From the NCBI RefSeq assembly GCF_001556185.1, contig NZ_LSIJ01000029.1, forward strand, positions 1 to 52,062: a DNA stretch of 52,062 nt, read 5' to 3'. This document shows, piece after piece, positions 26,550-44,716 of the stretch. The translations under genes were made by a program, and so were the position numbers. The notes under the pieces are model-generated. The model did not search any database and was not told the DNA's origin. It saw nothing but the letters and a program-made list of their open reading frames with translations. The number at the start of each line of letters is the position of its first letter. Within the stretch, counting starts at the first letter, position 1. Source of the DNA: Sphingomonas sp. CCH10-B3. GTDB lineage: Bacteria > Pseudomonadota > Alphaproteobacteria > Sphingomonadales > Sphingomonadaceae.

Positions 26550-27671
26550 ATGAAGATCGCGGTCCTGAAGGAGCAGCAGGCGGGCGAGCGGCGCGTGGCG
26601 GCAACGCCCGAGACGGTCAAGAAATTCGTCGGTCTTGGCGCCAGTGTCGCGGTCGAGGCGGGCGCGGGCGAGCAGGCCGCGATCAGCGACGCGCAGTTCG
26701 CCGAAGCGGGGGCGACGGTCGCCGATCGCGCCGCGACGGTCGCGGGCGCCGACATCCTGCTTGGCGTGCAGGGTCCCGATCCGGCGAGCCTGAGCGGCGC
26801 TGCGCCCGGCGCTTGGATCGTCGCCAGCCTTAATCCCTTCGTCGAGCGCGCGCGCGTCGATGCTTATGCCGCTGCGGGCTTCGAAGCGCTGGCGATGGAA
26901 TTCATGCCGCGCATCACTCGCGCGCAGTCGATGGACATATTGTCGAGCCAGGCGAACCTTGCCGGTTACAAGGCGGTGCTCGATGCCGCCGCCGAATATG
27001 GCCGGGCTTTCCCGATGATGATGACGGCGGCGGGCACGGTGTCGGCCGCGCGGGTGTTCGTGATGGGGGTCGGCGTCGCGGGGCTTCAGGCAATCGCGAC
27101 GGCGCGGCGGCTCGGCGCGCAGGTATCGGCCACCGACGTGCGATCGGCGACCAAGGAGCAGATTCTGTCGCTGGGTGCGAAGCCGATCTTCGTCGAGAAT
27201 GTGAAAGGCATCGAGGGCGAGGGATCGGGCGGCTATGCGACCGAGATGAGCCCCGAATATCAGGCAGCGCAGGCCGAGCTGGTATCGTCGCACATCGCCA
27301 AGCAGGACATCGTCATCACCACTGCGCTGATCCCCGGCCGCCCGGCGCCGCGGCTGATCAGCGATGCGCAGATCGCGACGATGCGGCCGGGCAGCGTGAT
27401 CGTCGACCTGGCGGTAGAAAGCGGCGGCAACGTCGAGGGGTCGGTGGCGGGCGACGTGGTCGAGGTCCACGGCGTGAAGCTGGTCGGTCACCGAAATGTC
27501 GCCAGCCGCCTGCCCGCCGACGCCTCGGCGCTGTTCGCGCGCAACCTGTTCAACTTTCTCTCGACCTTCTGGGACAAGGAAGCGGGCAAGCCCGTGCTCG
27601 ACGAAGAAATCGGCAACGCCGTGCGGCTGACGCAAGGCGGCAAGGTTGTGAGCGAGAGGTTGCTGGCGTGA
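26550..27671 (+). CDS. pntAA: NAD(P) transhydrogenase, alpha-1 (NAD-binding) subunit
   Basis: The cytosolic NAD(H)-binding domain I of the proton-translocating transhydrogenase, which uses the proton gradient to drive NADPH formation from NADH. The 373 residues show MKIAVLKEQQAGERRVAATP at the start, the Rossmann region MGVGVAGLQAIATARRLGAQVSATD and the mobile-loop region EMSPEYQAAQ. In the three-gene type found here, alpha is split into this soluble subunit and a small membrane subunit. A repeat-flanked DUF559 gene separates it from that next subunit. Confidence 0.95.
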   Translation: MKIAVLKEQQAGERRVAATPETVKKFVGLGASVAVEAGAGEQAAISDAQFAEAGATVADRAATVAGADILLGVQGPDPASLSGAAPGAWIVASLNPFVERARVDAYAAAGFEALAMEFMPRITRAQSMDILSSQANLAGYKAVLDAAAEYGRAFPMMMTAAGTVSAARVFVMGVGVAGLQAIATARRLGAQVSATDVRSATKEQILSLGAKPIFVENVKGIEGEGSGGYATEMSPEYQAAQAELVSSHIAKQDIVITTALIPGRPAPRLISDAQIATMRPGSVIVDLAVESGGNVEGSVAGDVVEVHGVKLVGHRNVASRLPADASALFARNLFNFLSTFWDKEAGKPVLDEEIGNAVRLTQGGKVVSERLLA

Positions 27672-27690: not shown

Positions 27691-27745
27691 AATCCTCCCC
27701 CGCTGGGGGAGGTGGCAGCGCGAAGCGCTGACGGTGGGGGCGTAG
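27691..27745. repeat. Left arm of a long inverted repeat (palindromic element family A)
   Basis: About 50 bases beginning ATCCTCCCCCGCTGGGGGAG and ending near GACGGTGGGGG. It holds an internal hairpin of its own (CCTCCCCC/GGGGGAGG). Its reverse complement is at 28095-28148 with only two or so mismatches. The end of the arm also supplies the G-rich ribosome-binding region of the DUF559 gene. Confidence 0.85.
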
Positions 27746-27746
27746 C

Positions 27747-28163
27747 GTGGAAGATCACACGCCCGAAGCGCTCGCAGCAGCCCGTCGCCTCCGTAGGACC
27801 ATGTCCCTCCCGGAAGTTCTGCTGTGGAATCATCTTCGTGGCAAACCGCTGGGCCTGAAGTTCCGCAAACAACACCCGGTCGGCGATTTTGTCGTCGACT
27901 TCTATTGTGCAGAAAAGCGCCTCGCGGTCGAGATTGACGGTATCGCCCATGATCTGGGCGATCGCCCCGCACGCGATGATCGTCGCGAAGCGTGGCTGCA
28001 TGCACAAAAAATCGATGTCCTGAGATTGTCCGCTGTCGATGTCCTCAATGACGTGGCAGGCGCAGCCGACGCGATTGTTCGCCACTGCGCCACTGTTCCC
28101 CCACCGTCAGCGCTACGCGCTGCCACCTCCCCCAGTGGGGGAGGATTTCATCAGGTGTCTTGA
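27747..28163 (+). CDS. DUF559 domain protein, Vsr/restriction-like nuclease fold
   Basis: A 138-residue protein starting at GTG directly after the left repeat arm. Core motifs are MSLPEVLLWNHLRG, LKFRKQHPVGDFVVDFYC and LAVEIDGIAHD, the PD-(D/E)XK-like pattern of DUF559, related to very-short-patch endonucleases. The Asp and Glu of DFYC and VEIDG would be the metal ligands. The last 25 residues or so are encoded inside the right repeat arm and are probably not part of the domain. It sits alone between two inverted arms inside the pnt operon and is unrelated to transhydrogenase. Confidence 0.85.
   Translation: MEDHTPEALAAARRLRRTMSLPEVLLWNHLRGKPLGLKFRKQHPVGDFVVDFYCAEKRLAVEIDGIAHDLGDRPARDDRREAWLHAQKIDVLRLSAVDVLNDVAGAADAIVRHCATVPPPSALRAATSPSGGGFHQVS
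28095..28148. repeat. Right arm of the inverted repeat (family A)
   Basis: Reverse complement of 27691-27745, about 50 bases with two apparent mismatches. It encodes the tail of the DUF559 protein and ends 18 bases before the pntAB start. Confidence 0.85.
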
Positions 28164-28166
28164 CCG

Positions 28167-28484
28167 ATGGACTTCATCTCAACCCTTTCGATTTTCGTCA
28201 TGGCGTGTTTCGTCGGCTATTACGTCGTCTGGTCGGTGACGCCGGCGCTGCACACGCCGCTGATGGCCGTCACCAATGCAATTTCGTCGGTGATCATCGT
28301 TGGCGCGCTGATCGCGAGTGCGGCGGCCGGCATCGGCAGCGGCGGGGCAACCTCAAAATGGCTGGGGCTGCTCGCGGTCGTCCTGGCGAGCGTCAACATC
28401 TTCGGCGGCTTTGCCGTCACCCAGCGCATGCTGGCGATGTACAAGAAGAAGGACAAGCCGGCCGCGGCTGCGACTAAACATTGA
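28167..28484 (+). CDS. pntAB: NAD(P) transhydrogenase, alpha-2 (membrane) subunit
   Basis: A 105-residue membrane subunit with about three to four helices that forms the alpha-side part of the proton channel (domain II). It starts [20 protein letters not shown], has the [15 protein letters not shown] segment typical of the subunit and ends in a Lys/Ala-rich cytosolic tail. It lies between pntAA and pntB, though the DUF559 gene now separates it from pntAA. Its ribosome-binding region follows the right repeat arm closely. Confidence 0.93.
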
Positions 28485-28572
28485 TTTCGTCACCCCGGGC
28501 TCGACCCGGGGTCCCGCTTTTTGGTGCAAGCGGGAAGAACAGCGGGACCCCGGCGCAAGGCCGGGGTGACGA
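28485..28572. repeat. Palindromic intergenic repeat between pntAB and pntB
   Basis: CGTCACCCCGG...CCCGGGGTCCCGC is followed after about 20 bases by GCGGGACCCCGG...CCGGGGTGACG, two facing copies of one unit. It fills most of the 103-base gap and could form a strong RNA hairpin that adjusts pntB expression. Confidence 0.85.
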
Positions 28573-41115: not shown

Positions 41116-41141
41116 CCCTCCCCTCAAGGGGAGGGGCTTTG
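41116..41141 (+). terminator. Hairpin with short T-tail upstream of the spike genes
   Basis: CCCCTCCCC (41116-41124), loop TCAA, GGGGAGGGG (41129-41137), then CTTT. Nine perfect pairs make it stable; the short T-run makes termination possible but unproven. Confidence 0.5.
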
Positions 41142-43148: not shown

Positions 43149-43534
43149 GCGCCGAGGCCGTCTTCCAGGCGGCGCTGACCGACGCACTGACCAATGCGAT
43201 CGGTGACCGGCTGAACGGCGTGTTCGAGGGGCCAGCGGTGAAAGCCACCGCGCCCTATGCCGAGATCGGCGAGCTGCTGAGCATCGACTGGAGCACCAAG
43301 GATGCCGAGGGGCGCGAGCTGCGCAGCTTGATCCAGCTGCGCGACCGGGCCGAGACGGCGGTGCGGCTGCAAGGCCTTGCCTGCGACGCCGATGCCGCGA
43401 TCCGCGGCATGGCACCGGCGCTTGACGGCTGGCGGATCGCGAGCGTCGTGCTGGTGCGCAATCGCATCGTGCGGTCGGGCGTCGGGCAATGGACCGCGCT
43501 GATCGAACACCGCGCGCGGGTGCTGGCGGAATAA
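43145..43534 (+). CDS. DUF3168 tail terminator-like protein (gp8)
   Basis: A 129-residue DUF3168 protein, the family of tail-terminator/completion proteins that cap the tail tube at the head side. LNGVFEGPAVKATAPYAEIG near the start and the closing WTALIEHRARVL are typical. The middle strands SLIQLRDRAETAVRLQG lie between. It overlaps the preceding gene by four bases. A palindromic repeat separates it from the tail-tube gene. Confidence 0.85.
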   Translation: MSAEAVFQAALTDALTNAIGDRLNGVFEGPAVKATAPYAEIGELLSIDWSTKDAEGRELRSLIQLRDRAETAVRLQGLACDADAAIRGMAPALDGWRIASVVLVRNRIVRSGVGQWTALIEHRARVLAE

Positions 43535-43546
43535 CGCGCCCTTCAA

Positions 43547-43627
43547 CGTCATTGCGAGCGCAGCGAAGCAATGCAGAGCACCACGCGAGCATGCCCCTGG
43601 ATTGCTTCGCGGTGCTCGCAATGACGG
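43547..43627. repeat. Palindromic repeat (family E) before the tail-tube gene
   Basis: CGTCATTGCGAGCGCAGCGA at the left and GCTTCGCGGTGCTCGCAATG with ACGG at the right face each other across about 25 bases. This is a widely seen form of repetitive extragenic palindrome. Confidence 0.85.
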
Positions 43628-43677
43628 CGGGTGCTGGGGTGCTGGGGTGCTGGCGACATAATCACGGGAGAAGAGAC

Positions 43678-44085
43678 ATGGCAGCGGAAAAGGGCAGCGC
43701 GTTCCTGCTCAAGATCGGCAATGGCGCGACGCCGCCGGTGTTCACCACGGTCGCGGGGCTGCGCACGACGCAGTTGCAGATCAACGGCGAGGCGGTGGCA
43801 ATCACCTCCAAGGATTCGGGCGGCTGGCGCGAATTGCTGTCGGGCGCGGGTGTGCGATCGGTGAGCGTTTCGGGGGCGGGGATCTTCACCGGTTCCGCCG
43901 CCGAAGCGCGGCTGAAGGGCAATGCGCTGAGCGGGACGATCGACGATTACCGGCTGAGCTTCGAAAGCGGCGAGAGCTTGACCGGGCGGTTCCTGGTGAC
44001 GCGGCTCGACTATGCCGGCGATTACAATGGCGAACGCAACTACACGCTCGCGCTCGAAAGCTCGGGCGCGGTGGTGAGCGCATGA
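43678..44085 (+). CDS. Major tail tube protein (gp9, TP901-1-like)
   Basis: A 135-residue protein of the phage tail-tube family. AFLLKIGNGATPPVFTTVAGL near the start, the AITSKDSGGWRELL region and the beta-rich second half ending RNYTLALESSGAV are typical. It polymerises into the tube through which DNA leaves. A GGGAG ribosome-binding site precedes the ATG at 43678. It overlaps the gp10 start by four bases. Confidence 0.88.
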   Translation: MAAEKGSAFLLKIGNGATPPVFTTVAGLRTTQLQINGEAVAITSKDSGGWRELLSGAGVRSVSVSGAGIFTGSAAEARLKGNALSGTIDDYRLSFESGESLTGRFLVTRLDYAGDYNGERNYTLALESSGAVVSA

Positions 44086-44396: not shown

Positions 44397-44716
44397 TGAG
44401 CACGATCCTCCCCCCACGGGGGAGGTGGCGGCCGCAGGCCGACGGAGGGGGTGTGCCACAGGCGAATCGCTCGGGGCCTGCCCCCTCCACCGCCTTCGGC
44501 GGTCCCCCTCCCGCTTCCGGGGAGGATTTTGCGGATCGCGCCGCCAAGCTCGCGGGGCTGGCGGGCGCGCTGTTCGGCTGGAGTCCAGATACTTTTTGGA
44601 ATGCGACCCCGGCCGAACTTGCGAGCGTCGTCGCGGCGCTTGTCGGTGACGCCGCGCCCCCGCCCCCCGACCCCGCGACAATCGCCCAATTGATGGAGGC
44701 ATTTCCCGATGGATGA
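44396..44716 (+). CDS. Phage tail assembly chaperone (gp10.1-like) with a repeat-encoded N-terminus
   Basis: A 106-residue protein. The C-terminal part from about residue 46 (FADRAAKLAGLAGALFGWSP then NATPAELASVVAAL) is the normal phage tail chaperone. Residues about 4-45, rich in Pro, Gly and Arg, are encoded by a palindromic repeat (44405-44530) and have no family counterpart. The frame stays open through the repeat, so a longer chaperone is made. ATG 44396 shares one base with the previous stop. Confidence 0.72.
   Translation: MSTILPPRGRWRPQADGGGVPQANRSGPAPSTAFGGPPPASGEDFADRAAKLAGLAGALFGWSPDTFWNATPAELASVVAALVGDAAPPPPDPATIAQLMEAFPDG
44405..44530. repeat. Palindromic repeat (family A) inside a coding gene
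   Basis: Left unit ATCCTCCCCCCACGGGGGAG...GACGGAGGGGG and right unit CCCCCTCCACCGCCTTCGGC...CCGGGGAGGAT face each other. The left unit closely resembles the arms flanking the DUF559 gene at 27691 and 28148, so it belongs to the same family. Confidence 0.82.

Follow-up and report, generated by a model that had tools for sequence, protein, structure and literature searches.

A DUF559 nuclease gene between inverted palindromic arms: a candidate non-HUH analogue of REP/RAYT elements

The element between pntAA and pntAB

We analysed a 52,062-nucleotide stretch of Sphingomonas sp. CCH10-B3 (contig NZ_LSIJ01000029.1, positions 1 to 52,062; hereafter the window), in which a gene for a DUF559 (PF04480) nuclease, framed by two inverted palindromic arms, lies inside the pnt operon. 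Pfam matches and the coordinates of the open reading frames (ORFs) agree that this gene separates pntAA (26550..27671, + strand) from pntAB (PNTB_4TM; 28167..28484, + strand), the host operon genes upstream and downstream of the element, as an earlier note made from the bare sequence had stated. The nuclease gene (27747..28163, + strand; Pfam E 2.5e-26) encodes 138 aa and begins with GTG. A repeat search returned arms of 50 nt each, 96% complementary (48/50) and spaced by 357 nt, the left at 27691..27740 (+ strand) and its inverted copy, the right arm, at 28098..28147 (- strand), which bears out the roughly 50 bases and two mismatches given in the note. Folded alone as single-stranded DNA, each arm forms two hairpins of its own, again as the note had it (dG -16.9 and -15.9; z -3.9 and -5.4). 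These are CCTCCCCC-loop-GGGGGAGG and CAGCGC-loop-GCGCTG, with a G-rich tail inward of both. Hairpin 1 of the left arm occupies 27694-27712, hairpin 2 occupies 27716-27730 and the tail runs to 27740, while the hairpins of the right arm lie at 28108-28122 and 28126-28144. With ≤3 mismatches allowed, the arm core pattern occurs 3 times in the window, a number reached in 0/100 shuffles.

The gene is tightly fitted to its arms. Its GTG at 27747 lies six bases past the left-arm end at 27740, and not two as first reported; judged by eye, the G-rich tail before it could serve as the ribosome-binding site. At the other end the stop codon (28163) falls 16 nt beyond the right arm, just past it as the note had described. 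The reading frame therefore continues across this arm, the arm and the 3' part of the gene overlap, and the C-terminal tail PPPSALRAATSPSGGG is arm-encoded. An Rfam scan of the window gave no self-splicing intron or intein around the gene, which is a separate intergenic ORF, and the gathering score was reached by one tRNA only.

Inverted arms across DUF559 genes and their co-divergence with the nuclease

DUF559 genes in general are often flanked by inverted repeats (IRs). At E≤0.01, IRs were found at 166 of 213 distinct DUF559 domains versus 19 of 546 control positions (ORFs of these loci), in a set that includes orthologues and whose entries are not independent; at the stricter E≤1e-5 the numbers were 139 and 5. 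The earlier note had proposed checking for such a statistical association and would have taken its absence as a refutation; the enrichment is clear. The set joins seed genomes (IR at 51/60), family (58/72), class (21/29) and phylum (16/23) samples, pnt loci (5/5), plasmid records (14/19), distant seed hits (0/4) and the window (1/1). For the three taxonomic samples (family, class and phylum) the loci are a subset of the matches: those selected automatically had the best scores (29 class and 23 phylum new loci), 40 family loci were hand-chosen from genomes with several DUF559 matches, and the plasmid loci represent 19 of 35 matching records. Among 11 Sphingomonadales genomes similar to the window, where repeats on both sides within 300 nt were counted, IRs accompanied 49/58 DUF559 matches versus 17/564 matched control positions. 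DUF559 itself was present in 53/59 genomes of the family sample and 46/150 of the phylum sample, its proteins being annotated as 'DUF559 domain-containing protein' or 'very-short-patch-repair endonuclease'.

Outside Proteobacteria, IRs (E≤0.01) were found on plasmids of Deinococcus sp. NW-56, D. aetherius and D. proteolyticus, and on the cyanobacterial plasmids of Synechocystis sp. B12, Pseudanabaena sp. ABRG5-3, P. galeata and Picosynechococcus PCC 7002, several of the cyanobacterial repeats being weak, with a length of 22 nt or an identity of 68-70%. Three Deinococcus species have the DUF559 gene in the hpa cluster, at differing points of it. No IR was seen at the DUF559 genes of E. coli KE47, Photobacterium GJ3, Sinorhizobium M103, Methylobacterium aquaticum and Azospirillum brasilense. 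The weaker DUF559 matches (40-80 bits) provide an internal contrast, with IRs in 1/8, and six of these eight lie in frames of 183-202 aa. Both kinds can occur together: an IR-flanked domain stands beside an IR-free one of 193 aa at L045/L072 and is followed by an IR-free one at L036/L061. At L102 a single 316-aa frame holds two DUF559 domains.

Among 208 distinct proteins, 161 had IRs, and from these we drew 102 compact elements, selected for arm lengths of 30-90 nt and nearness of the arms to the domain. Their outer length is narrowly distributed (median 457 bp; 418-515 bp, 5-95%). In 61 of them the stop codon follows the right arm at a distance of up to 40 nt, in 18 it falls within that arm, in 10 it precedes the arm, and in the remainder it is found farther out. 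Four recurrent arm types could be distinguished, with labels coined in this analysis: T1, the type of the window (CTCCCCC..GGGGGAGGTGGC, a hairpin and ACGGAGGGGG), T2 (CCTCCCCG..CGGGGAGGGGGACC, a hairpin and GGTGGAGGGG), T3 (CCCCTCCCGC..GCGGGAGGGG and TTGGGGGTGGGC) and T4 (CCCTCTCCC..GGGAGAGGG). Of the 52 elements with a type assigned to each arm, 49 have matching types; neither arm was typed in 118/206. Though hypervariable in sequence, hairpin 2 is fully paired in 49/56 distinct T2 and 23/24 distinct T1 sequences, and its mean stem of 5.2 bp (T2) and 5.4 bp (T1) drops to 2.7 and 2.9 bp when 3' halves are exchanged among sequences of equal length. Its structure thus appears to be under selection, and folding as DNA or as RNA would both give such retained pairing.

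Profile and fold matches assign the protein to the Vsr-type PD-(D/E)XK nucleases, with E23, D51, E62, D64, H68 and D77 invariant in 49 sequences. Arms and nuclease have diverged together. Across the 102 compact elements, those with more similar proteins also have more similar arms (Mantel r 0.56), and the correlation holds at r 0.50 after removal of the 133/5151 flank-sharing pairs (maximum of 1000 permutations 0.087). For 76/102 elements the best-matching right arm for a given left arm is its own partner. On a FastTree tree of DUF559, arm type requires 11 changes (75 typed of 204 tips), versus at least 32 in 200 shuffles. A defence-system role was considered and rejected, PADLOC giving weak matches only (HEase, E 3.7e-4; DpdF, 1.2e-3). 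Carriage by phages was likewise rejected: one of 50,697 phage records matches a DUF559 protein at E 1e-5, so there is little sign of a phage-borne family.

Gene-less arm pairs, multiple copies and the history of the pnt site

Arm pairs also occur without the gene. The window contains one such mini-element (44404..44528, no strand assigned), with a left arm at 44405-44451 (82% to the left arm of the DUF559 element) and an inverted right arm at 44481-44528 (73%); the former is T1-like and the latter T2-like. Nearby ORFs (43489-44085 and from 44709) look phage-tail-like by eye, and the nearest record is a virus record. All nine close extra arm pairs in the examined loci have the orientation of a DUF559 element (9/9), and gene-less inverted arm pairs are mostly 70-105 nt apart. 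The arm pattern recognised both arms in 18/20 gene-less cases, for a unit of about 92-180 bp stem to stem. Among consecutive T2 pairs within 300 nt, counted over 145 of 173 sites, 19/23 are oriented like the element, their starts mostly 102-106 nt apart; 4 are tandem and none is arranged otherwise. Over the same sites, all six T2 pairs at 430-474 nt correspond to DUF559 genes. Genome G008 has 33 T3 sites, which include 13 close pairs spaced by 68-104 nt. Dispersed inverse palindrome pairs are a feature of T2 and T3, T1 copies being mostly DUF559 arms. A different arrangement was seen at G009:C22:201116-201327, where four tandem T2 arms in 62-nt steps lie directly upstream of a DUF559 gene.

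The abundance of the repeats follows the nuclease to some extent. T2 was present in 17/21 genomes with IR-type DUF559 and in 0/9 without (p 5e-5), and at least four T3 copies were present in 11/21 versus 0/9 (p 0.011). Class-wide, T4 was found in 6/30 genomes whose best DUF559 match reached E≤1e-25, a cut-off chosen in this analysis, versus 2/85 others (p 0.004). T2 copies were also associated with the cognate, T2-armed nuclease (p 0.011; 13 vs 3 genomes).

The best evidence for spread comes from one genome, G057. It carries three DUF559 copies (L106-L108) at unrelated sites, the closest pair 98% identical and the others 92% and 86%, together with a fourth copy in which the middle of the gene is deleted and a fifth reduced to the left half. 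Synteny is broken at the L106 site in the relatives G322 and G323, where its two flanks lie on different contigs.

The element has been at the pnt site for a long time. pntAB was found in 56/59 family genomes, and by coordinates a DUF559 gene lies within about 620 nt upstream in 9 of these 56, two of the nine (G019, G050) being apparently out-of-frame pieces. The pntAA-pntAB gap, measured at 47 loci, is up to 30 nt in 16, 31-120 nt in 9 and wider in 22, with some of the wide gaps holding other genes; empty sites of the kind the earlier note had in mind do occur in related genomes. The element is also found at this site in Sphingopyxis, Erythrobacter, Novosphingobium and Sphingorhabdus records and on a Sphingomonas parapaucimobilis plasmid; it is common to several genera and absent from most genomes sampled. 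Among ten T1-like pnt occupants the ratio of nonsynonymous to synonymous differences per site (pN/pS) is 0.25-0.63, and synonymous sites are near saturation except in the close pair L001/L003. In the domain tree (FastTree) the pnt occupants fall in eight groups, the largest of which (seven members) has a support of 99. A recent insertion at pnt was rejected because the occupied site is common to several genera and synonymous sites are near-saturated; no target duplication was found in the diverged pairs compared. The earlier note held that conservation of the same gene and flanks at this locus across distant families would speak against a mobile element. Since the gene lies between pntAA and pntAB in several genera, such conservation is half present, and within one order.

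A REP/RAYT-like reading and its alternatives

The closest parallel is the system of repetitive extragenic palindromic (REP) sequences and REP-associated tyrosine transposases (RAYTs). The excerpted text of PMC8266576 describes the REPtron as a transposase-like gene beside cognate palindromes, with inverse palindrome pairs dispersed in the genome, a gene of more housekeeping-like character and a repeat abundance that often correlates with gene presence. DUF559 elements share the cognate palindromes adjoining the enzyme gene, as the IR enrichment above documents, and the dispersed inverse pairs, here of T2 and T3. Unlike RAYTs, DUF559 has the PD-(D/E)XK Vsr fold and not that of an HUH Y1 enzyme with a catalytic Tyr, its arms consist of two hairpins or of one plus a G-rich tail, and the gene fits closely between the two arms. 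The tetranucleotide GTAG is not conserved in the 13-nt zones at the four arm ends (1, 2, 4 and 2 of 102 elements), and neither is CGTC (2, 4, 2 and 4). The likeness to REP/RAYT with a different nuclease, drawn in the earlier note, therefore fits, and by this comparison the DUF559 element appears to work like REP/RAYT without being a member of that family. The note's broader description, the layout of a small mobile element, is supported by the IR enrichment, the gene-less forms with similar ends and the empty pnt sites, and not by a recent insertion or a target duplication.

Because layout and behaviour match the REPtron while the enzyme is unrelated to TnpA_REP and GTAG is unconserved, we propose that DUF559 may act on its own folded arms. 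We lean, with modest confidence, towards the element being a REP/RAYT analogue in which a PD-(D/E)XK nuclease replaces the HUH transposase and DUF559 would be the mover of the repeats. The data establish the association of gene and arms, the build of the element, the joint divergence of arms and nuclease, the persistent pairing of hairpin 2, the existence of mini-elements and, within a single genome, similar as well as internally deleted copies; the role of DUF559 in moving the repeats is inferred. From the outside inward, such an element of about 457 bp would comprise a C-rich end, hairpin 1, hairpin 2 or none, a G-rich tail and the DUF559 gene, followed by the same arm inverted. The nuclease, of the Vsr/EDxHD type, would most likely recognise and nick or cut its own structured arms, perhaps when they are extruded or single-stranded at replication forks. 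This cutting could drive spread, in that host repair or recombination would copy the arm pair elsewhere, with or without the gene, and gene-less pairs would be non-autonomous, REPIN-like offspring. The gene-bearing copy may then be inherited vertically at places where it does no harm, pntAA/pntAB among them, as has been reported for TnpA_REP. The chances seem to us evenly balanced that DUF559 is the engine of widespread, unrecognised minimal mobile elements in Pseudomonadota, with arm-flanked cases in Deinococcota and Cyanobacteriota as well, and that this nuclease, as a non-HUH counterpart of REP/RAYT, moves or copies its own terminal palindromes and thereby gives rise to many of the G/C-rich palindromic repeats in the genomes concerned. 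Should most DUF559 proteins be engines of palindromic mini-elements, this would provide a function for DUF559 and an origin for G/C-rich bacterial repeats; the REP/RAYT way of life would have arisen more than once from unrelated nucleases, and arm types and nuclease types would be expected to pair up. No link between DUF559 and palindromic repeats was found in the literature searched, a search whose scope left most subscription papers and bioRxiv outside.

Several observations weigh against DUF559 as the mover. In G057 the homology between copies runs 30-40 nt past the arms, and therefore either the copied unit was larger than the element or the target was itself a repeat; the latter seems the less likely, as the left-flank pattern (≤3 mismatches) is confined to L106 and L107. 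Occupied/empty pairs, including L294/L290 vs L247 and L296 vs L061/L071/L142, gave neither a clean recent empty site nor any consistent target duplication of the kind raised by the earlier note, all of the pairs compared being diverged, with junctions diverged or replaced. T1, the type of the window, is nearly single-copy in relatives (20 sites in 9/21 genomes, 12/20 of them DUF559 arms). The association of T3 copies with a cognate T3 nuclease is not significant (p 0.20), and G008 carries its 33 T3 copies without a T3-armed nuclease. The 30 genomes compared for T2 and T3 abundance were hand-picked, with counts that include element arms, kinship that is uncorrected and ancestries that may differ. 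No IR was seen at 47/213 DUF559 domains, all four distant seed hits among them (three Bacteroidota and one unclassified alphaproteobacterium; short flanks in three), and in 26/102 elements another right arm matches better than the element's own partner.

DUF559 could instead be a free-standing homing-type endonuclease gene that time and again colonises existing palindromic mini-elements, which would be moved by other means and offer it safe places to land, and that spreads only itself. The fold and catalytic domain resemble those of the I-Bth0305I homing endonuclease family (EDxHD), to which a DUF559 gene is assigned in the excerpted text of PMC9403480. The DUF559 element differs from that family in lacking any seen intron or intein, in occupying many chromosomal sites and in having its own inverted terminal palindromes and gene-less derivatives; arm type moreover tracks nuclease phylogeny, gene-bearing elements keep to a narrow size range, and the T2 pattern was not found in the 9 genomes without IR-type DUF559, so that we regard such colonisation as unlikely. 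A resident HUH transposase (TnpA_REP/RAYT) moving the repeats, with DUF559 as passenger, would agree with inverted palindrome pairs being described as a REP/BIME (bacterial interspersed mosaic element) hallmark in the portion of PMC8266576 cited above, and no search for RAYT genes was made here. What lies between the arms of the six wider T2 pairs is nevertheless DUF559 in every case, the kind of repeat varies together with the DUF559 sequence, and GTAG is not a conserved tag beside the arms, being found in 1-4 of 102 elements per arm end, which makes a passenger role very improbable.

Parts of PMC12907096 report that the Caulobacter DUF559 protein VsrA causes a DNA damage response upon loss of a solitary methyltransferase, and read it as a mismatch-repair endonuclease of the very short patch (VSP) type, itself induced in the DNA damage response. 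DUF559 might likewise be a host Vsr-like repair gene whose arms are regulatory hairpins acting in translation, attenuation or mRNA stability, which would suit the G-rich stretch that the left arm supplies before the start codon and the purifying selection at the pnt site. Vsr repairs T:G mismatches, whereas the elements described here have paired arms and mini-elements; the repair function would leave unexplained the fixed orientation and spacing of gene-less arm pairs, the arm families that track nuclease clades and the several copies in one genome, and seems quite improbable to us. Miniature inverted-repeat transposable elements (MITEs) and their parent insertion sequences consist of an autonomous copy plus shorter derivatives with common termini. 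The internally deleted copy and the several near-identical copies at unrelated sites in the one genome G057 are shared with them, while the multi-hairpin palindromic ends, a DUF559 nuclease as the sole gene and the failure to find target duplications among the diverged pairs compared set the DUF559 element apart.

Other palindromes were also seen in the window. The gap between pntAB and pntB (28487-28572) holds a different palindromic repeat (GTCACCCCGGG...CCGGGGTGACGA) with a terminator-like site, and repeats resembling it sit between pntAA and pntAB in L179 and L183. At 41116-41135 there is a lone CCCTCCCC-TCAA-GGGGAGGG hairpin that is like hairpin 1 of another arm type.
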